A DNA stretch of 64,000 bases from Diplonema papillatum (taxonomy: Eukaryota; Euglenozoa; Diplonemea; Diplonemida; Diplonemidae). Positions 1 to 63,811 of this stretch are shown in pieces (the first letter of the stretch is position 1; each line of letters opens with the position of its first letter). The DNA lies in the NCBI GenBank assembly GCA_030068145.1, contig JAPJBO010000718.1, forward strand, positions 1 through 64,000, read 5' to 3'. A program made the position numbers and the translations under genes. The notes beneath the pieces were generated by a model. It was not told the origin of the DNA. It was given only the letters and a program-made list of their open reading frames with translations, and did not search any database.

Positions 1-1215
1 TTGAGGGTTGTCCCACATTTTTGGATCACCAATACTGACGTTTGAGGGTTGTCCCACTTTTTTGGGTTACCAATACTGACGTTTGAGGGTTGTCCCACAT
101 TTTTGGATCACCAATACTGACGTTTGAGGGTTGTCCCACATTTTTGGGTCACCAATACTGACGTTTGAGGGTTGTCCCACTTTTTTCGATCACCAATACT
201 GACGTTTGAGGGTTGTCCCACTTTTTTGGATCACCAATACTGACGTTTGAGGGTTGTCCCACATTTTTGGATCACCAATACTGACGTTTGAGGGTTGTCC
301 CACTTTTTTGGATCACCAATACTGACGTTTGAGGGTTGTCCCACTTTTTTCGATGACCAATACTGACGTTTGAGGGTTGTCCCACTTTTTTGGATCACCA
401 ATACTGACGTTTGAGGGTTGTCCCACTTTTTTGGATCACCAATACTGACGTTTGAGGGTTGTCCCACTTTTTTGGATCACCAATACTGACGTTTGAGGGT
501 TGTCCCACTTTTTTGGATCACCAATACTGACGTTTGAGGGTTGTCCCACATTTTTGGATCACCAATACTGACGTTTGAGGGTTGTCCCACTTTTTTGGAT
601 CACCAATACTGACGTTTGAGGGTTGTCCCACATTTTTGGATCACCAATACTGACGTTTGAGGGTTGTCCCACTTTTTTCGATCACCAATACTGACGTTTG
701 AGGGTTGTCCCACTTTTTTGGATCACCAATACTGACGTTTGAGGGTTGTCCCACTTTTTTGGATCACCAATACTGACGTTTGAGGGTTGTCCCACTTTTT
801 TGGATGACCAATACTGACGTTTGAGGGTTGTCCCACTTTTTTGGATCACCAATACTGACGTTTGAGGGTTGTCCCACTTTTTTGGGTCACCAATACTGAC
901 GTTTGAGGGTTGTCCCACTTTTTTGGATCACCAATACTGACGTTTGAGGGTTGTCCCACTTTTTTGGATCACCAATACTGACGTTTGAGGGTTGTCCCAC
1001 TTTTTTCGATGACCAATACTGACGTTTGAGGGTTGTCCCACTTTTTTGGATCACCAATACTGACGTTTGAGGGTTGTCCCACCTTTTTGGATCACCAATA
1101 CTGACGTTTGAGGGTTGTCCCACATTTTTGGATCACCAACACTGACGTTTGAGGGTTGTCCCACATTTTTGGATCACCAATACTGACGTTTGAGGGTTGT
1201 CCCACTTTTTTCGAT
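1..1215. repeat. 41-bp tandem array, left arm
   Basis: About 29 head-to-tail copies of a 41-bp unit whose core reads GTTTGAGGGTTGTCCCAC, then a T-run, then GGATCACCAATACTGAC. Copies differ by few substitutions (CACATTTTT/CACTTTTTT, GGATCACC/CGATGACC). The array is already running at base 1, so it extends beyond the window. Short reading frames on the minus strand are by-products of the repeat. Confidence 0.97.
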
Positions 1216-1221
1216 GACAAA

Positions 1222-3720
1222 CGTTAGTTTTAGTGCCCCAAAGAAGTGGGACAACCCTCAAACGTCAGTATTGGTGATCCAAAAAAGTGGGACAACCCTC
1301 AAACGTCAGTATTGGTGACCCAAAAAAGTGGGACAACCCTCAAACGTCAGTTTTGGTGACCCAAAAAAGTGGGACAACCCTCAAACGTCAGTATTGGTGA
1401 TCCAAAAATGTGGGACAACCCTCAAACGTCAGTATTGGTGACCCAAAAAAGTGGGACAACCCTCAAACGTCAGTATTGGTGATCCAAAAAAGTGGGACAA
1501 CCCTCAAACGTCAGTATTGGTGATCCAAAAAAGTGGGACAACCCTCAAACGTCAGTATTGGTGATCCAAAAAAGTGGGACAACCCTCAAACGTCAGTATT
1601 GGTGACCCAAAAAAGTGGGACAACCCTCAAACGTCAGTTTTGGTGCCCCAAAGAAGTGGGACAACCCTCAAACGTCAGTATTGGTGATCCAAAAATGTGG
1701 GACAACCCTCAAACGTCAGTATTGGTGACCCAAAAAAGTGGGACAACCCTCAAACGTTAGTTTTAGTGCCCCAAAGAAGTGGGACAACCCTCAAACGTCA
1801 GTATTGGTGATCCAAAAATGTGGGACAACCCTCAAACGTCAGTATTGGTGATCCAAAAAGTGTGGGACAACCCTCAAACGTCAGTATTGGTGATCCAAAA
1901 AAGTGGGACAACCCTCAAACGTCAGTATTGGTGATCCAAAAAAGTGGGACAACCCTCAAACGTCAGTATTGGTGACCCAAAAAAGTGGGACAACCCTCAA
2001 ACGTCAGTATTGGTGATCCAAAAAAGTGGGACAACCCTCAAACGTCAGTATTGGTGATCGAAAAAAGTGGGACAACCCTCAAACGTCAGTATTGGTGATC
2101 CAAAAAAGTGGGACAACCCTCAAACGTCAGTATTAGTGATCCAAAAAAGTGGGACAACCCTCAAACGTCAGTATTGGTGATCCAAAAATGTGGGACAACC
2201 CTCAAACGTCAGTATTGGTGATCCAAAAAAGTGGGACAACCCTCAAACGTCAGTATTGGTGATCCAAAAAGTGGGACAACCCTCAAACGTCAGTATTGGT
2301 GATCCAAAAAAGTGGGACAACCCTCAAACGTCAGTTTTGGTGACCCAAAAAAGTGGGACAACCCTCAAACGTCAGTATTGGTGATCCAAAAATGTGGGAC
2401 AACCCTCAAACGTCAGTATTGGTGACCCAAAAAAGTGGGACAACCCTCAAACGTTAGTTTTAGTGCCCCAAAGAAGTGGGACAACCCTCAAACGTCAGTA
2501 TTGGTGATCCAAAAATGTGGGACAACCCTCAAACGTCAGTATTGGTGATCCAAAAAAGTGGGACAACCCTCAAACGTCAGTTTTGGTGACCCAAAAAAGT
2601 GGGACAACCCTCAAACGTCAGTATTGGTGATCCAAAAAAGTGGGACAACCCTCAAACGTCAGTATTGGTGATCCAAAAAAGTGGGACAACCCTCAAACGT
2701 CAGTTTTCGTGATCCAAAAAAGTGGGACAACCCTCAAACGTCAGTATTGGTGACCCAAAAAAGTGGGACAACCCTCAAACGTTAGTTTTAGTGCCCCAAA
2801 GAAGTGGGACAACCCTCAAACGTCAGTATTGGTGATCCAAAATTGTGGGACAACCCTCAAACGTCAGTTTTCGTGATCCAAAAAAGTGGGACAACCCTCA
2901 AACGTCAGTATTGGTGATCCAAAAAAGTGGGACAACCCTCAAACGTCAGTTTTGGTGATCCAAAAAAGTGGGACAACCCTCAAACGTCAGTATTGGTGAT
3001 CCAAAAAAGTGGGACAACCCTCAAACGTCAGTATTGGTGATCCAAAAAAGTGGGACAACCCTCAAACGTCAGTATTGGTGATCCAAAAAGTGGGACAACC
3101 CTCAAACGTCAGTATTGGTGATCCAAAAAAGTGGGACAACCCTCAAACGTCAGTATTAGTGCCCCAAAGAAGTGGGACAACCCTCAAACGTCAGTATTGG
3201 TGATCCAAAAATGTGGGACAACCCTCAAACGTCAGTATTGGTGATCCAAAAAAGTGGGACAACCCTCAAACGTCAGTTTTAGTGCCCCAAAGAAGTGGGA
3301 CAACCCTCAAACGTCAGTATTGGTGATCCAAAAATGTGGGACAACCCTCAAACGTCAGTATTGGTGATCCAAAAAAGTGGGACAACCCTCAAACGTTAGT
3401 TTTATGCCCCAAAGAAGTGGGACAACCCTCAAACGTCAGTATTGGTGATCCAAAAGTTTGGGACAACCCTCAAACGTCAGTTTTCGTGATCGAAAAAAGT
3501 GGGACAACCCTCAAACGTCAGTATTGGTCATCGAAAAATGTGGGACAACCCTCAAACGTCAGTATTGGTGACCCAAAAAAGTGGGACAACCCTCAAACGT
3601 CAGTATTGGTCATCGAAAAATGTGGGACAACCCTCAAACGTCAGTATTGGTGACCCAAAAAAGTGGGACAACCCTCAAACGTCAGTTTTAGTGACCCAAA
3701 AAGTGGGACAACCCTCAAAC
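1222..3720. repeat. 41-bp tandem array, right arm (inverted)
   Basis: The same 41-bp unit as in 1-1215 but in reverse-complement orientation, about 60 copies. The switch of orientation lies at about 1216-1222 with almost no spacer, so the two arms form a giant imperfect palindrome. This arm has a second-order pattern: a variant containing GTTAGTTTTAGTGCCCC recurs at about 1224, 1755, 2452, 2780 and 3395. The array ends with a partial unit at about 3720. Confidence 0.97.
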
Positions 3721-4085
3721 TGACGTTTCCGGACCGGTCACGGACCACTGTCGCCGATGGCTTCAGAATTTCGATGACAGTGCTCGAAAATGGTGCGGGA
3801 AAATCTGGTGAAAAAAATGACCCTGGCGGGATTCGAACCTGTGCCCTCAGGGTAGAGGTCCGCTGCACTGGTGAAAAAATGGACCGTGGCGGGATTCGAA
3901 CCTGTGCCACTCACCGTAGAGGCACGCCGCACTGTCAACTCGACCACATATTAATGCTGGGGCGGGGAAAAATCTTTTCAGCTTTGCTCAAGAAATATTT
4001 TTCGCATACCAAGGTGGGGGGGGGGTCTGGGGACCCACCTTTTCATTCTGCCAAGTCGGTGGGCAGGTGGCCCGCTCAGGAAAAA
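3721..4085. other. Spacer with tRNA-like units, no protein gene seen
   Basis: Unique-looking sequence between the 41-bp array and the next repeat block. Apart from the two tRNA-like units annotated separately and a G-run near 4015, I see no coding signal. Confidence 0.6.
3815..3945 (-). other. Two tandem tRNA-like (Pol III-like) units
   Basis: Read on the minus strand, two copies of a roughly 65-bp module carry GGTTCGAATCCCGCCA, a perfect B-box/T-arm match, followed by a T-run (a plausible Pol III terminator). The upper copy also has TGGTCGAGTTG about 50 nt before the B box, which fits the A-box pattern. I could not fold a convincing acceptor stem and see no clear anticodon arm, so this is more likely a tRNA pseudogene or tRNA-derived SINE head than a working tRNA. 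A related unit lies at 15,550-15,625. Confidence 0.5.
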
Positions 4086-4089
4086 ATCT

Positions 4090-4155
4090 GTGCTCCCTTA
4101 GAGTTGCCCATTATAGTACATGTTTCCTTAGAGTTGCCCATTATAGTACACACAC
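4090..4155 (-). repeat. 30-bp repeat, two inverted copies
   Basis: Two copies of CCTTAGAGTTGCCCATTATA followed by GTACA. This is the reverse complement of the 30-bp unit that forms the array at 7128-7400, so the 13-bp satellite between them is bracketed by inverted copies of one repeat. Confidence 0.85.
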
Positions 4156-4334: not shown

Positions 4335-6770
4335 AAAACTTGAGTTCCAAACTTGGGTCCCAAACTTGGGTCCCAAACTTGGGTCCCAAACTTGGGTCCC
4401 AAACTTGGGTCCCAAACTTGGGTCCCAAACTTGGGTCCCAAACTTGGGTCCCAAACTTGGGTCCCAAACTTGGGTCCCAAACTTGGGTCCCAAACTTGGG
4501 TCCCAAACTTGGGTCCCAAACTTGGGTCCCAAACTTGGGTCCCAAACTTGGGTCCCAAACTTGGGTCCCAAACTTGGGTCCCAAACTTGGGTCCCAAACT
4601 TGGGTCCCAAACTTGGGTCCCAAACTTGGGTCCAAACTTGGGTCCCAAACTTGGGTCCCAAACTTGGGTCCCAAACTTGGGTCCCAAACTTGGGTCCCAA
4701 ACTTGGGTCCCAAACTTGGGTCCCAAACTTGGGTCCCAAACTTGGGTCCCAAACTTGGTCCCAAACTTGGGTCCCAAACTTGGGTCCCAAACTTGGGTCC
4801 CAAACTTGGGTCCCAAACTTGGGTCCCAAACTTGTGTCCAACTTGGGTCCCAAACTTGGGTCCCAAACTTGGGTCCCAAACTTGGGTCCCAAACTTGGGT
4901 CCCAAACTTGGGTCCCAAACTTGGGTCCCAAACTTGGGTCCCAAACTTGGGTCCCAAACTTGGGTCCCAAACTTGGGTCCCAAACTTGGGTCCCAAACTT
5001 GGGTCCCAAACTTGGGTCCCAAACTTGGGTCCCAAACTTGGGTCCCAAACTTGGGTCCCAAACTTGGGTCCCAAACTTGGGTCCCAAACTTGGGTCCCAA
5101 ACTTGGGTCCCAAACTTGGGTCCCAAACTTGGGTCCCAAACTTGGGTCCCAAACTTGGGTCCCAAACTTGGGTCCCAAACTTGGGTCCCAAACTTGGGTC
5201 CCAAACTTGGGTCCCAAACTTGGGTCCCAAACTTGGGTCCCAAACTTGGGTCCCAAACTTGGGTCCCAAACTTGGGTCCCAAACTTGGGTCCCAAACTTG
5301 GGTCCCAAACTTGGGTCCCAAACTTGGGTCCCAAACTTGGGTCCCAAACTTGGGTCCCAAACTTGGGTCCCAAACTTGGGTCCCAAACTTGGGTCCCAAA
5401 CTTGGGTCCCAAACTTGGGTCCCAAACTTGGGTCCCAAACTTGGGTCCCAAACTTGGGTCCCAAACTTGGGTCCCAAACTTGGGTCCCAAACTTGGGTCC
5501 CAAACTTGGGTCCCAAACTTGGGTCCCAAACTTGGGTCCCAAACTTGGGTCCCAAACTTGGGTCCCAAACTTGGGTCCCAAACTTGGGTCCCAAACTTGG
5601 GTCCCAAACTTGGGTCCCAAACTTGGGTCCCAAACTTGGGTCCCAAACTTGGGTCCCAAACTTGGGTCCCAAACTTGGGTCCCAAACTTGGGTCCCAAAC
5701 TTGGGTCCCAAACTTGGGTCCCAAACTTGGGTCCCAAACTTGGGTCCCAAACTTGGGTCCCAAACTTGGGTCCCAAACTTGGGTCCCAAACTTGGGTCCC
5801 AAACTTGGGTCCCAAACTTGGGTCCCAAACTTGGGTCCCAAACTTGGGTCCCAAACTTGGGTCCCAAACTTGGGTCCCAAACTTGGGTCCCAAACTTGGG
5901 TCCCAAACTTGGGTCCCAAACTTGGGTCCCAAACTTGGGTCCCAAACTTGGGTCCCAAACTTGGGTCCCAAACTTGGGTCCCAAACTTGGGTCCCAAACT
6001 TGGGTCCCAAACTTGGGTCCCAAACTTGGGTCCCAAACTTGGGTCCCAAACTTGGGTCCCAAACTTGGGTCCCAAACTTGGGTCCCAAACTTGGGTCCCA
6101 AACTTGGGTCCCAAACTTGGGTCCCAAACTTGGTCCCAAACTTGGGTCCCAAACTTGGGTCCCAAACTTGGGTCCCAAACTTGGGTCCCAAACTTGGGTC
6201 CCAAACTTGGGTCCCAAACTTGGGTCCCAAACTTGGGTCCCAAACTTGGGTCCCAAACTTGGGTCCCAAACTTGGGTCCCAAACTTGGGTCCCAAACTTG
6301 GGTCCCAAACTTGGGTCCCAAACTTGGGTCCCAAACTTGGGTCCCAAACTTGGGTCCCAAACTTGGGTCCCAAACTTGGGTCCCAAACTTGGGTCCCAAA
6401 CTTGGGTCCCAAACTTGGGTCCCAAACTTGGGTCCCAAACTTGGGTCCCAAACTTGGGTCCCAAACTTGGGTCCCAAACTTGGGTCCCAAACTTGGGTCC
6501 CAAACTTGGGTCCCAAACTTGGGTCCCAAACTTGGGTCCCAAACTTGGGTCCCAAACTTGGGTCCCAAACTTGGGTCCCAAACTTGGGTCCCAAACTTGG
6601 GTCCCAAACTTGGGTCCCAAACTTGGGTCCCAAACTTGGGTCCCAAACTTGGGTCCCAAACTTGGGTCCCAAACTTGGGTCCCAAACTTGGGTCCCAAAC
6701 TTGGGTCCCAAACTTGGGTCCCAAACTTGGGTCCCCAAACTTGGGTCCCCAAACTTGGGTCTCAAACGCG
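4335..6770. repeat. 13-bp hairpin satellite (CCCAAACTTGGGT)n
   Basis: About 186 nearly perfect copies of CCCAAACTTGGGT. Each unit is itself a hairpin (CCCAA...TTGGG around AC). A few copies lose bases (near 4632, 4757, 4830 and 6131). Because 13 is not a multiple of 3 and the unit contains no stop in any phase, all six frames are open for over 800 codons. These frames repeat a 13-residue peptide and are not genes. Confidence 0.98.
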
Positions 6771-7127
6771 GTGCACCGTGCTGCACGCGAGGAAAACCCG
6801 GCTGAGGGAATTGATGCCTGTTGTGTTTCAGTTTTTGATCGGCATGGCAGCAAACCTTGCCATTTTGGTCCTTGATTCGATGAGAGTCTGGATTTGCGAA
6901 CCGAACCTGGTTCTGCAGAAACTTGGACACAACTTGGACTCAAAACTTGGACCCGCACTCAAGTTAGAACAAAGTACTCTTTTGGGCACAAACAGGAAAA
7001 GGTGCTGTTTTGGGCACAAACTCGGGAAACGTACTGTTTTGGACCTTATCCCAGCCTCGTTTTGCCCGGGCTTCGTTCCGCCCCACAGGACAGAACAGAA
7101 CAGGATAAGAGACCGTACCAGAGCAAA
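6771..7127. other. Degenerate satellite flank
   Basis: Sequence leaving the 13-bp array. It holds diverged echoes of it (ACTTGGAC, CAAAACTTGGAC) and three spaced TTTTGGGCACAAAC motifs. No gene recognised. Confidence 0.55.
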
Positions 7128-7400
7128 ACGTACTATCATGGACAACTCTAAGGAAACATGTACTATCTTGATCAACTCTAAGGAAAGATGTACTATCTTG
7201 ATCAACTCTAAGGAAACATGTACTATCTTGATCAACTCTAAGAAAAACCGTACTATCTTGGGATGTACTATAATGGGCAACTCTAAGGAAACATGTACTA
7301 TCTTGATCAACTCTAAGAGGTATGTACTATAATGGGTAACTCTAAGGAAACATGTACTATCTTGATCAACTCTAACAAAAACCGTACTATCTTGGGTATT
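7128..7400. repeat. 30-bp tandem array
   Basis: About nine units of a 30-bp repeat (CAACTCTAAGGAAACATGTA then CTATCTTGAT, or CTATAATGGG in some units). The AATGGG variants match the units at 4090-4155 in inverted orientation. Units vary mostly in the last third. Confidence 0.92.
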
Positions 7401-7596
7401 GACTCGTGTAGAAGAGCTTGAAGCAACCAAGAACCCGAGTGTAGATGCCGAAGAGGCTGCGGCCTGAAGTTAGCAAGGGTACCGTCTTCGAATCAGTGAA
7501 CTCAGCTGTTCTCGCGGTAAAACTTGAGGCAAATGTCTCGGGGAAGTGACATTTTCATCACAAAAACTGGAATGTTCGAGAATGGGCAAAAAGGGG
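7401..7596. other. Short spacer, no gene seen
   Basis: Unique sequence ending in GAGAATGGGCAAAAAGG, which is the core of the 29-bp repeat found again at 9605-9760. Confidence 0.5.
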
Positions 7597-7822
7597 CCAA
7601 AACCCATTACAGTATGTTATCCAAACTTTGAACCCATTACGGTACATGATCCAAACTTTGAACCCATTACGGTATGGTGCCAAACTTTGAACCCATTACG
7701 GTATGGTTTTCCAAACTTTGAACGAATTACGGTAGGTTCCAAACTTTGAAACCCATTACGGTATGGTTTTCAAACTTTGAACCCATTACAGTATGGTTTT
7801 CAAACTTTGAACGAATTCCGGT
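7597..7822. repeat. About 31-bp tandem array, left arm of foldback pair
   Basis: Seven units of AAACTTTGAACCCATTACGG followed by a short variable stretch (TATGG or TACATGAT). The outermost part, CCAAAACCCATTACAGTATG, recurs inverted at about 9580-9602, so this block and 9308-9602 are the arms of one inverted pair. Confidence 0.92.
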
Positions 7823-9307
7823 AAGTGTAAAATTTGACATTGTCTTGACATTGAAATTTGACGTTGTCAGTCGAGGTCTGCAAGTTGTTAACAACGCAGT
7901 GTAATTGGGCGACAAATTCATCTTCTGTGGTGACTCTACAGTGCCACGTCAGTGGTCGATCAGTCAGACTCTAAGGCAGACGGGTGATGGTTGCAGCTAC
8001 CATGTCTTCAGTAGGCCGATCCTAAGTCATCATCCTTCTGCACCGCAGTAGCAACAGATTCACTTTCATCTCCAATTCGGCGACCTCCGAAATCCACGTT
8101 CAACGCAAAGATGCGGCGTTAGACTACCGTCACTACGGCTCATGCTGGCCGAGCGGCTGTGTGCTGTTGCTACAGCTGTAGTAAACCTCGTGATCAGCAG
8201 GCACTGAAACCTACGGCCACGTCCGGATTGTGATTGGACCGGAAGAAGAGTCATGCTCATCGAGCTGCTTGCCACTTAGCCGCACCGTTGCGACAAATTT
8301 AAGAACAAAGTTCACAATCAGAAACGAAAGGTAAACCTGATCATTGTGGACGCATTTTGGGAAGCTTTGGAACGTTCGCGCCATTCGCAGATGATTCTGT
8401 CCATCACTTGCGTCAACAGGAAGGCAAAAAGAGAGAGATGAGGAGGAGGAAGGGTAAACTTCATGATCAGCAGTGAAAGTTGGCAGGCACTGCCCCTACT
8501 GTAGTACGGCGACCTCGGAAGCTCAGTGGAGTACTCTTCTCCCTGTTGCGAAAGCAGGATCCCTACCGACAGCGTAGGAGAGGAATAACCACCGACGGCC
8601 CATTACAGGGGGGGGGCTAAATACAACGAGCGCCCGTTGTATTCAAAGCGTCAAGCTCAAAATGCAGGTTCGCGGCAGAACGTGGTCTTCGAACACAACT
8701 GTTTTTCCATGCTAATCAACCGTGGGATTCTGCCCCCGTACAGAGGGAGCAGTTTTCGAGCAGCATTTGATACTTCGCAGTCGGTCTGACTCAGACCGAC
8801 CGCGACTCTGACTCCGCGAGCGTCACTGGATCCGGAAGTAGCAGCGGCGTTTCAGCCACAGGGTCGACTCGACTCTGACACTCGAGACTCGAGCGTGAAT
8901 CGGACAAGCCGAATCGGAAGTGGACTCGTCGGGACCTCCTCCCATGAAGTCTGATGACGAGTGACGGAGGGCCCGGACCGCCGTCCGACCTGCTGGACAG
9001 GGAAGGAAGGCATTGGACCGGACCCCGGGGTGGGCGGATCGGGGGCGAGTGCGCCGCAATGGTGGTTGCCATGCACCGACTCTTCTTCAAACCCGAGCAC
9101 TTCCCCTGGGGATGCATCTGTGCGAGGTCCTTCAGAAATCGAGAGGTCCAAAGCAAGCAGCCAACCTCGAGCATGTGCCAAAAGACACAAACTGGATCCA
9201 TCGACGCCAACTTCACATCTATGATCTCTCTCCACGTCCGCTTCTACGTATCTCGTTGGTGTTGGGCTCATAACCTGACAGTGACACCGAAATGCTAGTC
9301 AAAGTTT
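7823..9307. other. Loop of the foldback pair, no gene recognised
   Basis: About 1.5 kb of non-repeat sequence between the inverted 31-bp arrays. Overlapping short frames exist on both strands at 8791-9298, but none has a recognisable domain. A run of short GACTC-type direct repeats lies at 8780-8900. Confidence 0.6.
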
Positions 9308-9602
9308 AGAAATCATGCCGGAATTGGTTCAAATTTGGAACCTCACCGTAATGGGTTCAAAGTTTGAAAACCATACCGTAATGGGTTCAAAGTTTGAAAA
9401 CCATACCGTAATGGGTTCAAAGTTTGGGACCATACCGTAAGGGGTTTCAAAGTTTGGAACCTACCGTAATTCGTTCAAAGTTTGAAAATCCATACCGGAA
9501 TGGGTTCAAAGTTTGGATTGACATACCGTAATGGGTTCAAAGTTCGGACCATACTGTAATTCGTTCAAAGTTTGGATAACATACTGTAATGGGTTTTGGC
9601 CC
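9308..9602. repeat. About 31-bp tandem array, right arm of foldback pair
   Basis: Nine to ten units of CATACCGTAATGGGTTCAAA followed by GTTTGAAAAC, the reverse complement of the 7597-7822 units. It ends with the inverted copy of the left arm's outer sequence. Confidence 0.93.
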
Positions 9603-9765
9603 GGCAAAAAGTTAAATAGTGTTCGAGAATGGGCACAAAGTTACCGAGAATGGGCAAAAAGTTAAAAAGTGTTCGAGAATGGGCAAAAAGTTAGCGAGTG
9701 TTCGAGAATGGGCAAAAAGTTAAATAGTGTTCGAGAATGGGCACAAACATAAGGAAGTGTACTAT
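9603..9765. repeat. 29-bp tandem array (GAGAATGGGCAAAAAG)
   Basis: Five to six units of GTTCGAGAATGGGCAAAAAG plus TTAAATAGT, directly abutting the 31-bp array. The AATGGG core sits at the same place as in the 30- and 31-bp repeats. Confidence 0.9.
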
Positions 9766-9776
9766 AATGGGAATTG

Positions 9777-10081
9777 TCCCCCCGAAAATCGGACCCGAAA
9801 ATCGGACCCGAAAATCGGACCCGAAAATCGGACCCGAAAATCGGACCCGAAAATCGGACCCGAAAATCGGACCCGAAAATCGGACCCGAAAATCGGACCC
9901 GAAAATCGGACCCGAAAATCGGACCCGAAAATCGGACCCGAAAATCGGACCCGAAAATCGGACCCGAAAATCGGACCCGAAAATCGGACCCGAAAATCGG
10001 ACCCGAAAATCGGACCCGAAAATCGGACCCGAAAATCGGACCCGAAAATCGGACCCGAAAATCGGACCCGAAAATCGGACC
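9777..10081. repeat. 13-bp hairpin satellite (CCCGAAAATCGGA)n
   Basis: About 23 perfect copies of CCCGAAAATCGGA, each a hairpin (CCGA AAA TCGG). It has the same 13-bp length and symmetry as the satellite at 4335-6770 but a different sequence. It is also preceded by GTACTATAATGGG, the core of the 30-bp repeat beside the first satellite. Confidence 0.97.
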
Positions 10082-10343
10082 GCAAGTAGAACGGGTCTGT
10101 CACTCTCGCCAACCTGAATTATGCTAGATTCTGTGTGCATAATGCCTACTACTACTTTAGTAGCAGTAGAGTTTTAGTAAAACCGTTTACCAATGGAACC
10201 CCAGGGTGCGCAACCAGGAGCCGAGCTCAGGGTGAAGCAGCTCACCAAAATTTTGCATAATTAGCCACAAAGGTAGCCACAAGGTTTGTGGCTACTTTGT
10301 GGCTAAATGGGGCCACAATGTGGCAACCTTGTGGCTGACAGCT
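10082..10343. other. Upstream region with GCCACA inverted motifs
   Basis: No gene seen. At 10,260-10,335, AGCCACAAAG, GTTTGTGGCTAC, TTTGTGGCTAA and GTGGCAACCTTGTGGCTG form a cluster of direct and inverted GCCACAA motifs just before the next ORF, possibly a hairpin or a factor-binding cluster. Confidence 0.45.
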
Positions 10344-54098: not shown

Positions 54099-54606
54099 TT
54101 CGCACCGGCCGAACCTTTTCCCTGACCCTGACGCTTCCAAGAGGGGGTCGACCTTTGCACTTTCCCCGACATCCGCTGCATCACAACAGCGGCGGCCTTG
54201 TCCACAGCATTTACCGGGCCAGACATACCCTCACCCTGCTTGGCTAGCTCTGTCTTCAGCTCCCGTCGTGGAACCTTGTGCCGCACGTAGTTGTGCTGCA
54301 CGCGGACGAGTTGAAGCAGGTTGTTGCCCGCCTGCCTTTGCGGTGTCCCTTGCCATCCGTCGAAGTAGGCGACGCCCATGATCCAAAGGCGCAAGCTGTG
54401 GAACGCCTCCTCAAGCTGCTCGCCCCCTGGCAGATGTGCCATCCCACTGAGATAGCGCGACTCCAAGTGGAATATGAGCCGGTGCGGGTCAGTGGAAATT
54501 TCATCCACCCAGTCTTTGACGTCTTCGGTGTCTGCTGGGAAAACAACTGCGACATCGCCATCATCTCCGTCTTGAGCTGCTTTCTTCTGTCCTCCTTCAA
54601 GGCTTT
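54095..54606 (-). pseudogene. Gag-like ORF of YR retroelement 2, 5' truncated
   Basis: Only the C-terminal half remains: VVFPADTEDVKDWVDEI, RLIFHLESRYLSGM, GNNLLQLVRVQHNYV and a basic tail. The start is lost at the junction with repeat W near 54,610. Stop at 54,095 within the conserved ATGA overlap. Confidence 0.75.
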
Positions 54607-55404: not shown

Positions 55405-55490
55405 CTTCTTTCCTTTCTTCTTCTCCGTAGCGTCGTTGAACACCGCCCATCTCGCCGCGCGCTCCGCCCTTCCACGCAACTCTAAAGTAC

Positions 55491-55702
55491 CATGCAGGGT
55501 CAGAACCTTGTGTCTTTTTGGAAATGGCCAAAATTTTATATCCAGAAAAATAATGGGTTTTTTGAATTTTAAAATTTTGGAACAAACTCTGCGGTAATTT
55601 TTGCGGAAGTTGAGCAAAAAAAAAATTTGCCAAAATTTTTTTTTGGGGTCCATCGGCCCCGCGGGAGCGTTTTAAAAAGACACAAGGTTTGGACCCTGCA
55701 TG
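55491..55702. mobile_element. MITE, complete copy
   Basis: 212 bp with both ends (CATGCAGGGTC / GACCCTGCATG). Flanks GTAC and TTAC. Confidence 0.9.
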
Positions 55703-55711
55703 TTACTGTAC

Positions 55712-55921
55712 CATGCAGGGTCAGAACCTTGTGTCTTTTTAAAACGCTCCTGCGGGGCCGATGGACCCCAAAAAAAATTTTTGGCAAAAAAAAAATTTGC
55801 TCAACTTCCGCAAAAATTACCGCAGAGTTTGTTCCAAACTTTTAAAATTCAAAAACCCCATTTTTTCTGGAAATAAAATTTTGGCCATTTCCAAAAAGAC
55901 ACAAGGTTCTGACCCTGCATG
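55712..55921. mobile_element. MITE, complete copy
   Basis: 210 bp, inverted relative to the 55,491 copy. Flanks GTAC and GTAA. A 30-bp left-end fragment of another copy follows at 55,924-55,951. Confidence 0.9.
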
Positions 55922-55951
55922 GTAAAGGGTCAAAACCTTGTGTCTTTTTAA

Positions 55952-56164
55952 CATGCAGGGTCAAAACCTTGTGTCTTTTGGGAAATGGCAAAAAAAAAAA
56001 ATTCCGAAAAAAAATTGGGGTTTTTGAATTTTAAAAGTTTGGAACAAACTCTGCAGTTATTTTTGATGAAGTTGAGCAAAAAAAAAAATTTCCAACTTTT
56101 TTTTTTGGGGTCCATCGGCCCCGCGGGAGCGTTTTAAAAAGACACAAGGTTTTGACCCTGCATG
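55952..56164. mobile_element. MITE, complete copy
   Basis: 213 bp. Flanks TTAA and CTAA. The right end adjoins the 40-bp array. Confidence 0.9.
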
Positions 56165-57178
56165 CTAACCGAAGTTTTTTGTGATGAAAATGGCTTGCGA
56201 CTCTAACCAAAGTTTTTTGTGATGAAAATGGCTTGTGACTCTAACCGAAGTTTTTCTCAATGGAAATGGCTTGCGACTCTAACCGAAGTTTTTCTCAATG
56301 AAAATGGCTTGCGACTCTAACCGAAGTTTTTCTCAATGAAAATGGCTTGCGACTCTAACCGAAGTTTTTTGTAATGGAAATGCTCTACGCGACTCAATGA
56401 AAATGGCTTGCGACTCTAACCGAAGTTTTTTGTAATGGAAATGCTCTACGCGACTCTAACCGAAGAGCTGCCAGGGTCAAAACCTTGTGTCTTTTTGAAA
56501 ATGGCAAAAAAAAATTGGGGTTTTTGAATTTTAAAAGTTTGGAACAAACTCTGCAGTTATTTTTGATGAAGTTGAGCAAAAAAAAAAATTTCCAACTTTT
56601 TTTTTTGGGGTCCATCGGCCCCGCGGGAGCGTTTTAAAAAGACACAAGGTTTTGACCCTGCATGCTAACCGAAGTTTTTTGTGATGAAAATGGCTTGCGA
56701 CTCTAACCAAAGTTTTTTGTGATGAAAATGGCTTGTGACTCTAACCGAAGTTTTTCTCAATGGAAATGGCTTGCGACTCTAACCGAAGTTTTTCTCAATG
56801 AAAATGGCTTGCGACTCTAACCGAAGTTTTTCTCAATGAAAATGGCTTGCGACTCTAACCGAAGTTTTTTGTAATGGAAATGCTCTACGCGCCTCAATGA
56901 AAATGGCTTGCGACTCTAACCGAAGTTTTTTGTAATGGAAATGCTCTACGCGACTCTAACCGAAGAGCTGCCAGGGTCAAAACCTTGTGTCTTTTTGAAA
57001 ATGGCAAAAAAAAATTTCCAGAAAAAAAATGGGGTTTTTGAATTTTAAAAGTTTGGAACAAACTCTGCAGTAATTTTTGAGGAAGTTGAGCAAAATTTTT
57101 TTTTTCCAACATTTTTTTTTGGGGTCCATCGGCTCCGTGGGAGCGTTTTAAAAAGACACAAGGTTCTGACCCTGCATG
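56165..57178. repeat. 500-bp tandem duplication (40-bp array plus MITE)
   Basis: 56,165-56,664 repeats as 56,665-57,164 with an exact 500-bp offset and very few changes. Each half holds seven to eight units of a roughly 38-41-bp repeat (CGACTCTAACCGAAGTTTTT plus TGTAATGGAAATG or CTCAATGAAAATGG) followed by a left-truncated MITE (from CCAGGGTC at about 56,471 and 56,971). Confidence 0.93.
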
Positions 57179-57601
57179 CTAATCCAGGTTTCTGTCTTGA
57201 GGCACACTTGCCAACACAGGTCAAACTGGATTTCTGTCTTCATCTTCCCTTGGGGAAGAGACACAGGCTAAACCAGGTTTCTGTCTTGAGGCACACCTTT
57301 CTGTGTTATTTTCGTACTCTTCCTTCAACCATTCTTCAATCTTCTGTCTCCTGCTCCCTTTCATTTCTGCTTTGAGTCCCACCAGCACAACAGGAACGTT
57401 GAAGTGGACAACACTTGATTGAATTGATTTGATTTGCCACCCATCACAACAGGTTACAACTTGAGAGAAACACTAAAAATGAAGACTGAGAAGAACGAAA
57501 GCAAAGGCTTGGCAGTATCTGCCCACCAGCACCGGTCAAAGGATCGTTACTGGATTACTGAAGGAAAAAAAGGCAAGGCAGCAGCAGCAAGGATGCTGTA
57601 T
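57179..57601 (+). other. Unique segment, possible short ORF
   Basis: Two direct copies of CCAGGTTTCTGTCTTGAGGC (57,183 and 57,273). A plus frame from 57,434 reads into the next MITE. No domain recognised. Confidence 0.4.
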
Positions 57602-57881
57602 CATGCAGGGTCAAAACCTTGTGTCGTTTTGGAAATGGCCAAAATTTTATTTCCGGAAAAAAAATGGGTTTTTTGAATTTTAAAAATTTGGAACAAAAAC
57701 TGCGGTAATTTTTGCGGAAGTTGAGCAAATTTTTTTTTTTCCAAAAATTTTTTTTGGGGTCCATCGGCCCCGCCCACGCTCTCGTTCTTGATGAATGAAG
57801 ACATTCTTGTCGAATGCTTTCGCAGAAGTTCGTCTTCCTCGGGAGCGTTTCAAAAAAGACACAAGGTTTTGACCCTGCATG
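57602..57881. mobile_element. MITE with internal insertion
   Basis: Both ends present. TSD GTAT on each side (GCTGTAT/CATG ... CATG/GTATTC). At 280 bp it is about 66 bp longer than its relatives because of foreign sequence at about 57,775-57,842 inside the GC-rich block. Confidence 0.9.
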
Positions 57882-57954
57882 GTATTCAGGGTCAAGCAAG
57901 GCGAACGGCAGCACTTGTGCTGAGCTGTTGAGTGACCCTTCTCACAACTTTTTG

Positions 57955-58245
57955 GTCCAGAAACTGACCAAAAAAGCTGATCCAGTTTTTTTGACCCAGT
58001 TTTTTTTGATCCAGTTTTTTTGATCCAGTTTTTTTTTGATCCAGTGTACCCACCTGAAAAAAACTGGATCAAAAACCAGTTTTTATTGATCCAGTTTTTT
58101 TTGATCCAGGTGTACCCACCTGAAAAAAACTGGATCAAAGTTTGATCCAGTTTTTTGACCAGAAAAGTTGACCCAGTTTTTATTGATCCAGTTTTTTTTG
58201 ATCCAGTTTTTATTGATCCAGATTGGGTTGATCCAGACCCGCCTC
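57955..58245. repeat. GATCCAGTTTTTTT repeats, direct and inverted
   Basis: About a dozen units of TTTTTTGATCCAG with inverted CTGGATCAAA units and two copies of GTACCCACCTGAAAAAAACT. Followed by a MITE right end (to 58,275). Confidence 0.85.
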
Positions 58246-58279
58246 CAAAAAGACACAAGGTTTTGACCCTGCATGATAA

Positions 58280-58442
58280 CATGCAGGGTCAAAACCTTGC
58301 GTCTTTTTAAAAACACTCCCGCAGGGCCGATGGAGCCCTAAAAAAATTTTTGGAAAAAAAAAAATTGCTCAACTTCCTCAAAAATTGCTGCAGAGTTTGT
58401 TCCAAACTTTTAAAATTCAAAAAACCCAATTTTTTCCGGAAT
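58280..58442. mobile_element. MITE, right end truncated
   Basis: Begins CATGCAGGGTC after ATAA and stops before the right inverted terminus, at TTCCGGAATTTATT. Confidence 0.85.
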
Positions 58443-58503
58443 TTATTATCGTGGTCAACTCTACATACTTGGGGGCGTGATTGAGCCCCTCAGGCTCGAA
58501 TCA

Positions 58504-58734
58504 CTAAGCTGCGCATTGTAAGCGGTTCGTCCGTTCGAGAGTCTTCGGCTTGGGACTGCTCGTCTGCGATGGGAAAGATCGGGCGATACACAGAGCCTTT
58601 CGTGTTAGATATGCATCTGGTACGCTCCGACAATGAGAAATCCAGGTAGCCGACAGAGATGTTTCCATTCCCTGCAGTTGACTCATTCGCTTTCCGTGTC
58701 TTGTTGGGCTAATGGCTTCCATGCCTCTTTTATA
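58504..58734 (-). pseudogene. Possible tail of the split YR gene
   Basis: A minus frame of about 77 codons between two MITEs, directly after the YR C-terminal fragment at 58,944-59,073. No motif of its own. Assignment is by position only. Confidence 0.3.
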
Positions 58735-58940
58735 TGGGGTCAAACCTTGTGTCTTTTTAAAAACACTCCCGCGGGGCCGATGGAGCCCTAAAAAAATTTT
58801 GGAAAAAAAAAAAAAATGCTCAACTTCCTCAAAAATTGCTGCAGAGTTTGTTCCAAACTTTTAAAATTCAAAAAACCCATTTTTTTCCAGAATTTTTTTT
58901 TGGCCATTTTCAAAAAGACACAAGGTTTCGACCCTGCATG
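58735..58940. mobile_element. MITE, left end truncated
   Basis: Starts at GGGGTCAAACC and ends CATG followed by TTAT. Confidence 0.85.
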
Positions 58941-58943
58941 TTA

Positions 58944-59073
58944 TGGACTCTTGACCATTCAATGTACTCTTTAAAGGTTTGCGAGCTCCATCTCCCGGCC
59001 TTAAGGAGGATGCACAGCTCTGGGTTGCTGTCATTTATGTCCTGCGCGGCGCCCCTGCGGAAGCTATGTGTAC
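58944..59073 (-). pseudogene. Tyrosine recombinase C-terminal fragment
   Basis: On minus: HSFRRGAAQ (the His..Arg motif of YRs), ELCILLKAGRWSS and FKEYIEW with a Tyr in the place of the nucleophile. The spacing (HxxR, GxW, Y) is characteristic. Cut on both sides by MITEs. The preceding part of the domain is at 59,505-59,876. Confidence 0.72.
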
Positions 59074-59279
59074 CATGCAGGGTCAAAACCTTGTGTCTTT
59101 TTGAAAATGGCAAAAAAAAAAAAATCGGAAAAATAATGTTTTTTGAATTTTAAAAGTTTGGAACAAACTCTGCAGTAATTTTTGAGGAAGTTGAGCAAAT
59201 TTTTTTTTTCCAAAAAAATTTAGGACTCCATCGGCCCCGCGGGAGCGTTTTAAAAAGACACAAGGTTTGACCCTGCATG
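59074..59279. mobile_element. MITE, complete copy
   Basis: 206 bp. TSD GTAC on each side (TGTGTAC/CATG ... CATG/GTAC), inserted in the YR fragment. Confidence 0.92.
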
Positions 59280-59283
59280 GTAC

Positions 59284-59500
59284 CATGCAGGGTCAGAACC
59301 TTGTGTCCTTTTTGGAAATGGCAAAAAAAAAAAGTTTCCAAGAAAAAAATTGGGTTTTTTGAATTTTAAAAGTTTGGAACAAACTCTGCAGTATTTTTTG
59401 CTGAACTTGAGCGAAATTTTTTTTTTTCCAACTTTTTTTTTTGGGGTCCATCGGCCCCGCGGGAGCGTTTTAAAAAGACACAAGGTTTTGACCCTGCATG
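59284..59500. mobile_element. MITE, complete copy
   Basis: 217 bp. TSD GTAC on each side. Only four bases separate it from the previous MITE, so the two inserted at the same spot. Confidence 0.92.
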
Positions 59501-59504
59501 GTAC

Positions 59505-59876
59505 CCCACCCTTGCACAGGCTGTTGGAACAGGGTGCCTTCATTTTAACGGATTCAAGCATGTCTGGGTATGTCATGCTGAATATTTCCGCACCGGGTGC
59601 AACATTATCTCGGATGTGAGGCCACAGGTGATGAATGGGGCATAGCCCCCGCCATCCTTTCTTCCTCGCCTGCATGTTGCAAATGCAACCCCTAGATAAG
59701 GTGTCACCTTGTTGGTTGTTCTTTCTTGTTCTCAGAACAATGTAGAGTTCCTGTTGGAATTTAAAGACTGCGCTGTGTCTTTTCGTCTCTTTAACGTCCC
59801 GGAGTGCATTAACCGGCGAGTCAGTCTCAATTCCACGTCTCAGCGGGATCGCTTCGTCACCGGTGCGTAGCAAGTA
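59505..59876 (-). pseudogene. Tyrosine recombinase central fragment
   Basis: Minus frame: AYLLRTGDEAIPLRRG, FKFQQELYIVLRTRKNNQQG, SRGCICNMQ and LCPIHHLWPHIR. The basic RxRKNxQG block, a Cys pair and a CP.H motif before the HxxR part suit DIRS/Crypton-type YR catalytic domains. It is followed on minus by two MITEs and then the C-terminal fragment. On its N-terminal side it is cut by the 22-bp-repeat element at 59,877. Confidence 0.62.
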
Positions 59877-60680
59877 GGCGGGTCTACACCTTGTCCGAGC
59901 TACACCTTGTCGGACAAGGTGTAGTTGGACGCTCCCGGACAAGGTGTAGTTGGCCCAATCCAAAATAGCCAGGGCCCAACTACACCTTGTCCGGGGAGCC
60001 TAACTACACCTTGTCCGGCGGCCAACTACACCTTGTCCGGCAGCCTCAACTACACCTTGTCCGGCAGCCCTAACTACACCTTGTCGGACAAGGTGTAGTT
60101 GGGGCTGCCGGACAAGGGTGTAGTTGGGCCAATCCAAAATAGCCAGGGGCCAACTACACTTGTCCGGGAGGCCTAACCACACCTTGTCCGGCACCCACTA
60201 CACCGTGTCCGGCACGCAACTACACCTTGTCCGGGAGCCCTAACTACACCTTGTCCGGCAGCCAACTACACCTTGTCCGGCAGCCAACTACACCTTGTCC
60301 GGCAGCCCAACTACACCTTGTCCGGCAGCCAACTACACCTTGTCCGGCAGCCAACTACACCTTGTCCGGCAGCCCTAACTACACCTTGTCCGGCACCCAA
60401 CTACACCTTGTCCGGCACCCAACTACACCTTGTCCGGCACCAACTACACCTTGTCCGGGAGCCCAACTACACCTTGTCCGGCAGCCAACTACACCTTGTC
60501 CGGCACCAACTACACCTTGTCCGGCACCCAACTACACCTTGTCCGGCAGCCCTAACTACACCTTGTCCGGCACCCAACTACACCTTGTCCGGCACCCAAC
60601 TACACCTTGTCCGGCACCTTGTCCGGCCCACTACACCTTGTCCGGCAGCGACTACACCTTGCCCGGCACCCAACTATACA
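59877..60680. repeat. 22-bp (CTACACCTTGTCCGG) inverted arrays
   Basis: About 30 units of CCAACTACACCTTGTCCGGC with small changes. Blocks in one orientation meet blocks in the other around a roughly 22-bp core CCAATCCAAAATAGCCAGGG (cores at 59,955 and 60,129). It begins with GGCGGGTCTACACCTTGTCC, the inverted match of the outer end at 63,811. Confidence 0.94.
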
Positions 60681-60689
60681 TGGTCACTC

Positions 60690-61120
60690 AACAGCTCAGT
60701 CCAATGGACTGTCCAGGCCTTGTGACCCTGGATGGCGTTTTCCCCATGCAACCCCCCATGCCCTCTCCCAACTCACTGCGCTGGTTACAGCTGCTAAAAA
60801 GGGGATAAAACAAATGCGAAAACAAGTGAGTGCCTGAGCACCAGCAATCTCTGGAACAAAAGATGAAAATAGAGAGCAAAGAAATGTGCCTAGCAGCACA
60901 CCAGATCAATCTCTGGGACAAAACAAAACAGGGAGCAAGCGATAGCAGGGAGCAAAAGGCGAACAGTAGACTGTGCCTAGCAGCACACCAGATCAGTCTC
61001 TGGGACAAAGAACAAAAACAAGGAGCAATGGGCAAACAATATGCCTAGCAGCACACCAGATTCAAATCGCCGATGAAAACAAGAAAACCAAAGAAAAGCC
61101 TGGGAAAAATATGAGTATAC
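60690..61120. repeat. Spacer with three TGCCTAGCAGCACACCAGAT repeats
   Basis: TGCCTAGCAGCACACCAGAT occurs at about 60,892, 60,974 and 61,042. The first two are followed by CTCTGGGACAAA. No coding signal. Confidence 0.8.
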
Positions 61121-61332
61121 CATGCAGGGTCAAAACCTTGTGTCTTTTAAAACGCTCCCGCGGGGCCGATGGAGCCCTAAATTTTTTTTTGGAAAAAAAA
61201 ATTTTTGCTCAACTTCCTCAAAAATTACTGCAGAGTTTGTTCCAAACTTTTAAAATTCAAAAAACCCAATTTTTTTTCCGGAATTTTTTTTTTTGCCATT
61301 TTCAAAAAGACACAAGGTTTTGACCCTGCATG
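61121..61332. mobile_element. MITE, complete copy
   Basis: 212 bp. TSD ATAC on each side (GAGTATAC/CATG ... CATG/ATACATG). Confidence 0.93.
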
Positions 61333-61351
61333 ATACATGAATAAACGAGAT

Positions 61352-61534
61352 TCATTCTGATCTGCGAAGCGACAACCTTCTCCGTTTTGGCTGGCTCTCT
61401 TTCCTAGTGTCCGGCGAATCTGGCACTGCAAAATTGAGATTCAGACGTCTTTGAGGGGTTGGAGGACGCCCCTGGGGCACTTGTGGTTGAGCAAGAGTAT
61501 CAGGATTGGAGTCAGAGTCAGAGAGCTCGTTGGA
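61352..61534 (-). pseudogene. Short coding-like fragment of unknown origin
   Basis: A minus frame of about 60 codons: SNELSDSDSNPDTLAQPQ, then a Pro/Arg-rich stretch ending QPKRRRLSLRRSE and a stop. It joins a core (CCAATCCAAAATAGCC) of the 22-bp element at 61,535, so it may be the end of a host or transposon gene cut by that element. Confidence 0.35.
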
Positions 61535-61815
61535 CCAATCCAAAATAGCCAGGGGCCAACTACACCTTGTCCGGCAGCCAACTACACTTTGTCTGACAAG
61601 GTGTTGGCCCAAAAAATTTTCGGAAATTTTCGGTTTTTTTTTTTTGGCCCAAAATTTTTTTGGAAAATTTTCAGATTTTTTTTTGGCCCAAAATTTTTCG
61701 GAAAATTTTCGGATTTTTTTTTTCGGCCCAAAAAATTTTCGGAATTCTTTTTCGAAATTTTTTTTTGGAAAATTTTCGGATTTTTTTTTTGGCCTGAAAA
61801 TATTTCGGGAAAATT
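61535..61815. repeat. 22-bp core plus TTTTCGGAAAATTTTCGG repeats
   Basis: A half element (core and right-hand units) to about 61,605, then five AT-rich units of GGCCCAAAATTTTTCGG type to about 61,815. Confidence 0.8.
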
Positions 61816-61835
61816 TGGTCACAATCCCAAGGCAG

Positions 61836-62138
61836 CTCTTCGGTTAGAGTCGCACAAGGCATTTCCATTACAAAAAACTTCGGTTAGAGTCGCAAGCCAT
61901 TTTCATTGAGAAAAACTTCGGTTAGAGTCGCGTAGCATGCAGGGTCAAAACCTTGTGTCTTTTTGAAAATGGCCAAAAAAAAAATTCCGGAAAAAAATTT
62001 CTTTCTTTTGCGACCCTTGCGCAACCCTAACCGAAGTTTTTTGTAATGGAAATGCTCTACGCGACTCTAACCGAAGTTTTTCTCAATGAAAATGGCTTGC
62101 GACTCTAACCGAAGTTTTTTGTAATGGAAATGCTCTAC
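61836..62138. repeat. 40-bp arrays in inverted orientation around a MITE left end
   Basis: 61,836-61,935 holds two to three reversed units (AACTTCGGTTAGAGTCGC). 61,936-61,998 is a MITE left-end fragment. 62,024-62,138 holds forward units (GCGACTCTAACCGAAG). Confidence 0.88.
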
Positions 62139-62352
62139 CATGCAGGGTCAAAACCTTGTGTCTTTTTAAAACGCTCCCGCGGGGCCGATGGAGCCCTAAA
62201 AAAAATTTTGGAAAAAAAAAAATTTGCTCAACTTCCTCAAAAATTACTGCAGAGTTTGTTCCAAACTTTTAAAATTCAAAAAACCCAATTTTTTTCCGGA
62301 ATTTTTTTTTTTTGGCCATTTTCAAAAAGACACAAGGTTTTGACCCTGCATG
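62139..62352. mobile_element. MITE, complete copy with clear TSD
   Basis: 214 bp inserted into a 40-bp repeat unit. The empty site GCTCTACGCGACT is known from neighbouring units, so the TSD is CTAC. Confidence 0.95.
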
Positions 62353-62640
62353 CTACGCGACTCTAACCGAAGTTTTTCTCAATGAAAATGGCTTGCGACT
62401 CTAACCGAAGTTTTTTGTAATGGAAATGCTCTACGCGACTCTAACCGAAGTTTTTCTCAATGAAAATGGCTTGCGACTCTAACCGAAGTTTTTTGTAATG
62501 GAAATGCCTTGTGCGACTCTAACCGAAGAGCTGCCAGATAAGGGCGCAACCCAAAAACGGGCCAAAAAGGTCGAGATAAGGGCGCAACCCAGAAATGGGC
62601 AAAAAAGGTATCGATAAGGTCTCATGAGACGGTATCGGGA
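62353..62640. repeat. 40-bp array and 40-bp GGGCGCAACCC units
   Basis: Four to five forward units of the CGACTCTAACCGAAG repeat to about 62,530, then two units of GATAAGGGCGCAACCCA with AAATGGGCAAAAAAGGT, close to the 29-bp repeat core at 9603-9765. Confidence 0.85.
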
Positions 62641-62813
62641 CCGCTGCCCCGATAGAGCCCTAAAAATTTTTCGGAAAAAAAAAAATATTGCTCAACTCCC
62701 TCAAAAATTACTGCAGAGTTTGTTCCAAACTTTTAAAATTCAAAAAACCCATTTTTTTTCCGGAAATTTTTTTTTGGCCATTTCCAAAAAGACACAGGTT
62801 TTGACCCTGCATG
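62641..62813. mobile_element. MITE, left end truncated
   Basis: Right 170 bp of the element. Ends CATG followed by CTAC. Confidence 0.85.
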
Positions 62814-62981
62814 CTACACCTTGTCCGGCAGCCAACTACACCTTGTCAGACAAAGTGTAGTTGGCTGCCGGACAAGGTGTAGTTGGGGCTGCCGGACAAG
62901 GTGTAGTTGGACCAATCCAAAATAGCCAGGGGCCAACTACACCTTGTCCGGCAGCCAACTACACTTGTCAGACAAAGTTAG
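62814..62981. repeat. 22-bp inverted array
   Basis: Forward units, a core at 62,912, then reverse-partner units. Interrupted by the next MITE. Confidence 0.9.
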
Positions 62982-63186
62982 CATGCAGGTCAAAACCTTG
63001 TGTCTTTTAAAACGCTCCCGCGGGGCCGATGGAGCCCAAAAAAAATTTGGAAAAAAAAAAAATTGCTCAACTTCCTCAAAAATTACTGCAGAGTTTGTTC
63101 CAAAATTTTAAAATTCAAAAAACCCAATTTTTTCCAGAAATTTTTTTTTGCCATTTTCAAAAGACACAAGGTTTTGACCCTGCATG
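62982..63186. mobile_element. MITE, complete copy
   Basis: 205 bp inside a 22-bp unit. Flanks TTAG and GTAG (original unit reads GTAG). Confidence 0.92.
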
Positions 63187-63440
63187 GTAGTTGGCTGCCG
63201 GACAAGGTGTAGTTGGGGCTGCCGGACAAGGTGTAGTTGGACCAATCCAAAATAGCCAGGGGCCAACTACACCTTGTCCGGCAGCCAACTACACCTTGTC
63301 TGACAAGGTGTAGTTGGCTGCCGGACAAGGTGTAGTTGGGGGCTGCCGGACAAGGTGTAGTTGGACCAATCCAAAATAGCCAGGGGCCAACTACACCTTG
63401 TCCGGGAGCCCTAACTACACCTTGTCCGGCAGCCAACTAC
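63187..63440. repeat. 22-bp inverted arrays
   Basis: Two successive inverted pairs with cores at 63,242 and 63,366. Confidence 0.92.
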
Positions 63441-63651
63441 CATGCAGGGTCAAAACCTTGTGTCTTTTTAAAACGCTCCCGCGGAGCCGATGGACCCCAA
63501 AAAAAAAGTTGGAAAAAAAAAAATTTTGCTCAACTTCCTCAAAAATTACTGCAGAGTTTGTTCCAAACTTTAAAATTCAAAAAAACCATTTTTTTCCGGA
63601 ATTTTTTTTTTTGCCATTTTCAAAAAGACACAAGGTTTTGACCCTGCATGC
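63441..63651. mobile_element. MITE, complete copy with clear TSD
   Basis: 211 bp inside a 22-bp unit (CCAACTACACC). TSD CTAC on both sides. Confidence 0.95.
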
Positions 63652-63811
63652 TACACCTTGTCCGGCACCCAACTACACCTTGTCCGGCAGCCCTAACTAC
63701 ACCTTGTCCGGCACCCAACTACACCTTGTCCGGCACCCAACTACACCTTGTCCGGGAGCCCCAACTACACCTTGTCCGACAAGGTGTAGCTCGGACAAGG
63801 TGTAGACCCGC
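63652..63811. repeat. 22-bp array, outer right end
   Basis: Six forward units, then an inverted pair ending GGACAAGGTGTAGACCCGCC, the exact inverse of the left outer end at 59,877-59,896. Confidence 0.93.

Follow-up and report, generated by a model that had tools for sequence, protein, structure and literature searches.

The stretch analysed here, bases 1–64000 of contig C718 of the Diplonema papillatum assembly (271 Mb, 2910 contigs), is referred to as the window. Two pairs of inverted tandem arrays in it, known by their 31-bp and 29-bp units, are very probably the terminal inverted repeats (TIRs) of foldback-type DNA transposons from the Mutator (MULE) superfamily, which form two families called F1 and F2 here. 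We observed their structure directly and found them in many copies, with target site duplications (TSDs), empty sites and nested insertions. One F2 copy has an open transposase frame between its arms, and another such frame lies between the arms of a further family, F3. A preliminary description of the window had named six inverted array pairs with the plan of foldback elements, united in a superfamily with replaceable termini. All six arrays are present near the positions it gave. Clean inverted pairs with element boundaries were obtained for the 31-bp and 29-bp arrays, and the foldback plan also extends to two families absent from its list, F3 (by TSD) and F5 (by orientation), but not to the other four named pairs.

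Structure and mobility of F1 and F2

Arrays were detected with Tandem Repeats Finder and by self-BLAST of the window, and their outer ends were aligned to set the boundaries. The F1 element occupies 7594–9602 (2009 bp) between exact 9-bp copies of the TSD GGCAAAAAG at 7585–7593 and 9603–9611. Its left arm (7594–7838, plus strand) is an array of ~30-bp units that recur on the minus strand in the right arm (9286–9602); the TIR begins GGGCCAAAACCC, and the two TIRs of this copy are identical over their first 40 bases. The F2 element (11098–12585, 1488 bp) is likewise bounded by an exact 9-bp TSD, CCGACGGCT, at 11089–11097 and 12586–12594. The 29-bp units of its left arm (11098–11418, plus strand) reappear on the opposite strand in its right arm (12404–12585), and its TIRs begin GGGGTAAACACC and GGGGCAAATACC. 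A TIR starts with GGG(G/C), leads into CCATT and continues as head-to-tail units of ~30 bp, of which 4 to 13 were counted per arm. The arrays extend out to the terminus itself, and inner units look like that terminus minus its GGG end. In the 29 copies compared, the 600 bp next to each end of an F1 or F2 element contained no unit in the wrong orientation.

Within each family the arms are common to the copies and the interiors form groups. Neither window element contains an interior match to the transposase described below. Short F2 copies have a common open frame of ~200 residues with no Pfam match, and the longest frame of the window F2 element likewise had no Pfam match. The F2 element interrupts a hAT-like gene region (10236–14185, plus strand), in which the Dimer_Tnp_hAT match at 13496–14185 (E 0.00047) falls slightly below the Pfam cut-off. 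The insertion site of the F1 element is an F3 array, seen at 9603–9780 on the minus strand (terminus at 9757–9780) and, on the other side, at ~7573–7593; the partner end of this F3 arm was not found within the window.

The orientation of arrays across the assembly matches this structure. The F1 unit has 420 exact genome matches (201 forward, 219 reverse) and the F2 unit 449 (251 forward, 198 reverse). Orientation was scored on the first 100 matches listed for each, merged into arrays, by comparing neighbouring arrays of the same unit no more than 5 kb apart. Among the matches listed, all 17 neighbouring F1 pairs were opposed, each in the order plus–minus, as were all 14 F2 pairs (11 plus–minus and three minus–plus). 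The three exceptional F2 cases fall between the ends of neighbouring or nested elements (loci L040, L046 and L048). Random orientation would give such uniform results with probabilities of ~8e-6 (F1) and ~6e-5 (F2), and is excluded. Of the 41 listed F1 arrays, seven had no partner; one of these begins a contig, and another falls where the listing was cut.

For the analysis of TSDs, 17 F1 and 11 F2 places were retrieved and the window elements were added. This gave 17 F1 copies (16 retrieved and that of the window; L027, without a left end, was left out) and 12 F2 copies (L039 and L048 left out, L040 and L046 contributing two each). Among the 17 F1 copies, nine had an exact 9-bp TSD and five an exact 10-bp one (14 in all), and among the 12 F2 copies nine had an exact 9-bp TSD. 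As a control, flanks were paired between different copies and scored by the same measure, at most one mismatch in 9, which leaves 10-bp TSDs outside its reach. By this measure the element's own flanks matched in 9/17 (F1) and 9/12 (F2), and those of different copies in 0/270 and 0/130 (0/400 together). A blind scan for TIRs with exact TSDs over the window and a 200-kb systematic sample returned five rows with 9-bp TSDs, both window elements among them. Since the offset control had a mean of 8.6 and was noisy, the scan alone proves little, and the argument rests on the flank comparison.

Empty sites were found for both families. The joined flanks of the window F1 element recur at 9698, in the neighbouring unit, with at most two substitutions. 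The hAT-like junction occupied by the F2 element is uninterrupted on contigs C104 and C857, with three mismatches each, and the reversed pattern, used as a control, gave zero matches. At L046 one F2 copy has entered the terminus of another F2 element, and this target is found intact at L040 (twice), L042, L043, L048 and L046 itself; the joined flanks of another nested copy, L040b, were absent from the retrieved loci. Elements of different families lie within one another's arms at L040, L046, L048 and L070, three deep in L046. An insertion preference for arrays was considered and is not claimed. At L059 (~465–634, contig C1122), an F2 right terminus directly adjoins the interior of another F2 arm, so that two elements stand end to end.

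F1 and F2 thus combine long inverted tandem-repeat arms with mobility evidenced by TSDs and empty sites. Because of these same TSDs and empty sites, assembly joins, which the preliminary description had named as a possible source of the pairs, are ruled out for both families. The assembly does contain duplicated stretches or haplotypes: the flanks of L030 and L031 are identical, one F1 insertion appearing on two contigs, and the F2 loci L042 and L043, each on its own contig, have identical right flanks and nearly identical left ones.

Transposases and related families

The F2 copy at L045 (4342 bp, TSD CCCATTCGG) encloses between its arms, on the minus strand, a 990-residue open frame, measured stop to stop, that matches the Pfam families Transposase_mut (E 1.1e-9) and MULE (E 1.5e-7). 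This is one long frame with a repetitive C-terminal part, and there is no clear second gene. Pfam returned no FLYWCH match at E 0.1 and no PHD finger in the frame or its C-terminal piece, where a diverged finger could escape; a search of solved structures with the frame returned no transposase. A MULE transposase fragment also lies in the window at 15912–16835 (plus strand; Pfam MULE, E 1.4e-9) and is 35% identical to the L045 protein; it is not counted with any of the families described here. The same letters are aligned in it with the presumed catalytic D, D and E of L045. An exact 32-base piece of the L045 gene occurs at eight places genome-wide, and an F2 arm lies 5' of the gene in four of the seven further places (C215, C772, C1122 and C843). 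A protein search of the genome with the transposase gave 74 matches, seven of the rows having internal stops.

A relative of this protein belongs to F3, whose unit is GCCCATTCTCGAACACTTTTTAACTTTTT. Two of the three F3 copies examined have a 9-bp TSD: the copy nested in L046 (3085–4462, TSD AATGGTAGC) and the element at C1103:56462–59970 (3509 bp, TSD ACCGAATGG); the copy at L068 has none. The C1103 element encloses a transposase match with a 754-residue open frame, 43% identical to the F2-family transposase of L045. The distance from F3 terminus to gene is 1582 bp at C1103, 1581 bp at C489 and 1582 bp at C1062, and a second spacing of 3360–3362 bp recurs at C203 and C56. Seven matches with 43% identity share one score. 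An F3 terminus lies 3' of those at C56, C203, C489 and C1103, and at C1088 it stands 5.6 kb away; at C730 there was no F3 terminus among the matches listed, and C1725 lies past the end of the listed F3 termini.

Units of a fourth family, F4, form a degraded inverted pair in the window that the preliminary description did not list: a left arm at 4096–4153 (plus strand), with no terminus or TSD resolved, and a right arm of F4-like units at 7130–7396 (minus strand), of which 7130–7375 pairs with the left arm. Elsewhere, opposed F4 units enclose transposases at C183 and C386, 38% and 37% identical to the F2-family transposase, as judged from coordinates only. The spacing of gene and unit is 1457 bp at C183, 1454 bp at C386 and 1457 bp at C777. 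The orientation of F4 neighbours is mixed (three plus–minus, two minus–plus and three plus–plus in the typed subset), and because of this the case for F4 rests on the enclosure at C183 and C386 and the spacing at C777. For F5, 22 of 26 neighbouring ends within 6 kb are plus–minus, three minus–plus and one plus–plus, among 100 listed matches of 166. A link between F5 and a transposase was dropped: it was seen in one place (C1088), and an F5 end lies at a similar distance outside the F3 element at C1103.

All termini seen start with GGG and lead into CCATT, and the units otherwise differ between families. CCATT is present in all five units, which was reached by 7 of 20,000 shuffle sets, with F4 and F5 chosen partly for likeness; its presence in F1–F3 alone was reached by 852 of 20,000. 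Two arrays at L012, without CCATT on the typed strand, stood outside this test. The common motif is no more than suggestive. Of the proposed superfamily with replaceable termini, one part survives, namely that related families have different units; it does not hold as a single superfamily of all six pairs. It is possible, although we regard it as somewhat less than an even chance, that these families are a radiation of Mutator/Foldback elements in which a ~30-bp unit and its transposase diversified together, as lock and key. F3 ends can be mixed, with one terminal unit F4-like and the inner units F3-like, as if units had been swapped between families.

In a sample of 20 loci (L001–L020), 12 inverted pairs with gaps of 100–6000 bp were identified in eight loci, five of them in L003. 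The arms at L002 and L009 hold short 10-bp arrays, and L012 alone has mainly array arms, without a TSD. Array-armed elements are thus not very dense. The L012 pair (5493–7489) is built of CCCTTATATCCC units, and each of its arms is itself palindromic.

Other array pairs and features of the window

None of the remaining four named pairs shows inverted arms that end at the boundaries of an element and are flanked by a TSD. The 41-bp arrays (1–1221 and 1218–3720) are inverted but abut, with no segment between them. The left one starts at base 1 of the contig, may be cut by the contig end, and could be assessed for a TSD only via the flanks of other copies. Among the matches listed, C1 and C18 carry 41-bp arrays in inverted orientation, and C19 carries them on one strand, over 4.6 to 16.4 kb. 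The flank beyond the array is common to copies (window 3517–3814 against L051, 98.7%; 3592–4100 against L052, 89.2%), and the arrays are thus parts of a larger repeat.

Alignment shows two opposed copies of one repeat at the GCTTAAATTT pair: L050 aligns reversed to 38491–39483 and 37491–37843 and forward to 42280–42508, placing one copy at 37491–39483 (reversed) and the other on the plus strand from 42280. The best flank match is 6 bp, with no 9-bp TSD, and genome-wide neighbours among the matches listed were on the same strand in 4/4 cases. For the ACTCTACTACAC (ACTC) pair, the left "array" in the window is a mere 34-bp match. The sole neighbour pair within 5 kb among 100 listed matches of 378 is same-strand, with no inverted neighbours among them, and no TSD was found at the window pair, whose arrays surround an RVT_1 frame (E 5.5e-21). 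The 22-bp pair has outer ends 97% alike over 78 bp, at which no TSD was found; its strands are interleaved in the listed places and alternate regularly on C94. Many copies of a ~220-bp repeat, whose ends resemble CATGCAGGGTCA...TGACCCTGCATG, occur in both orientations among 22-bp arrays (46427–46651 and 55480–63655). The cargo attributed to the proposed elements, namely a reverse transcriptase, a Gag-like frame and a secreted-protein gene, sits between arrays that are not foldback arms.

The window also contains a gene for a four-domain cation channel, in which no introns are visible: one open frame of 3513 residues (21078–31616, minus strand) has four Ion_trans stretches (E 2.8e-199) as well as long runs of glutamine. 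A 794-residue open frame at 34853–37234 (minus strand) matches C-5 cytosine DNA methylase (E 1.7e-50). At 47342–54596 there is a head-to-head pair of related retroelement-like stretches, with inverted similarity of 68% between 49288–51155 and 51617–53464 and a weak RT_RNaseH match below cut-off. Arrays of 13-bp units, each on one strand only, occupy 4336–6767 (187 copies) and 9781–10081 (23 copies), and at C843 an array of the kind seen at 4336–6767 has received an F2 insertion.

Mechanism, alternatives and known systems

TSDs of a size typical of Mutator (about 9 bp, 8–11) were found in F1, F2 and F3, and a transposase between the ends in F2 (L045) and F3 (C1103). F2 and F3 therefore show the Mutator/Foldback features tested, and F1 shows the arms and TSD. 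We propose that a MULE transposase from rarer full-length copies such as L045 would cut out short and full-length copies and reinsert them, leaving 9-bp target duplications and, in F1, also 10-bp ones. The short copies would be moved in trans, and F1 presumably by an enzyme of the MULE kind. Because inner units resemble the terminus minus its GGG end, the most natural reading of the arms is as repeated recognition sites; the units would be bound by the transposase, by analogy with the arm repeats of Galileo (PMC3688188).

Several observations weigh against this account. No exact TSD was identified in three of the 17 F1 copies (L023, L026 and L032) or in three of the 12 F2 copies (L042, L043 and L047), and no complete element was recovered at L027, L039 and L048. 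Three of the seven further places of the L045-type gene (C1848, C2044 and C2208) gave no F2 arm, and the far F2 arm was seen in none of the seven short stretches retrieved. No transposase was found between F1 arms in the copies retrieved from the 100 listed of 420 matches.

A single foldback superfamily uniting all six pairs, with cargo and replaceable termini, is very improbable: some inverted array similarity exists in all six, but GCTTAAATTT and ACTC neighbours are same-strand, the 22-bp strands are interleaved, the 41-bp arrays abut and have outer flanks common to copies, and the GCTTAAATTT, ACTC and 22-bp pairs have no 9-bp TSD. We give almost no credence to an origin of the pairs in inverted duplication of satellites or in assembly joins rather than in transposons. 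The common flanks of L030/L031 and L042/L043 and the 41-bp array at the contig start would suit it, but it is contradicted by 9–10-bp TSDs against 0/400 in the control, by empty sites and by the many different target sites. The elements could also be foldback transposons of another superfamily, such as Galileo-like P elements, with the L045 MULE gene a passenger. Foldback ends arose in several superfamilies, according to one account (PMC3169594), and F1 yielded no transposase. This is most unlikely, given that L045-type genes lie beside F2 arms at several places, that a relative of the enzyme lies between F3 arms with a TSD, and that 9 bp is a common TSD size for MULE transposases in the same account.

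VANDAL elements belong to Mutator. In Arabidopsis their tandem repeats diverge rapidly and are bound by VANC anti-silencing proteins, as reported (PMC10398659), and the arrays described here may likewise serve a role other than transposase binding, for example in escape from silencing or in transcription. We consider such a role unlikely, though by no means negligible. The arrays begin at the very terminus with units resembling it, L045 has one long frame and no clear second gene, and Galileo arm repeats are described as binding their own transposase (PMC3688188). VANDAL is nonetheless comparable in that repeats and a sequence-specific protein diverge together, the difference being that its partner protein is anti-silencing (PMC10398659).

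The preliminary description suggested that a superfamily of such elements falls outside standard annotation classes. That view is not sustained, for Tm1 of root-knot nematodes is described as a Mutator/Foldback family with tandem-repeat ends and 9-bp TSDs (PMC3169594). Tm1 is the closest described family: it shares variable-number short tandem-repeat arms, full-length copies that encode a MULE transposase, many short copies that lack it, and TSDs mostly of 9 bp (8–10). It differs in its units of 13–15 bp, with outer motifs that differ between ends, compared with ~29–31 bp and GGG...CCATT termini here, and in a Phantom-like transposase with FLYWCH, which Pfam did not match in the L045 protein; several families in one genome also set the present case apart from that account (PMC3169594). 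Tetris of Drosophila virilis has foldback arms with internal tandem repeats, a non-coding middle, TSDs of 8–10 bp and arm repeats linked to satellites, all as here, but its units are ~220 bp and no full-length copy is known, in contrast to the ~30-bp units and full-length copy seen here (PMC4079207). Galileo of Drosophila also has long internally repetitive TIRs, in which the repeats contain transposase-binding sites, but its transposase is of the P superfamily with a THAP domain, not MULE (PMC3688188). Rehavkus resembles these elements in its 9-bp TSD, TIRs of up to 400 bp and minisatellite before the 3' TIR, with which the repetitive C-terminal part of the L045 frame may be compared; it differs in its PHD finger, which Pfam did not match in L045, and in being reported from insects and annelids only (PMC6446971). 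A search of the open-access literature for foldback or Mutator elements with arrayed ends in algae and protists brought up no description of this set, which says little.

Mutator/Foldback elements with arrayed ends are therefore a known class, and what is new is that different units go together with different transposases. This pairing is supported by two elements checked in sequence (L045 and C1103) and, for F4, by coordinates. The reason for the long arrays at foldback ends is an open question on which these families bear; in 2013, transposase binding by Foldback and Phantom tandem repeats was called untested (PMC3688188). With several families, different units and transposases, and some open frames in one genome, co-divergence of unit and enzyme becomes directly testable. 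The elements also show that satellite-like arrays scattered through a genome of this kind can represent the ends of transposons.

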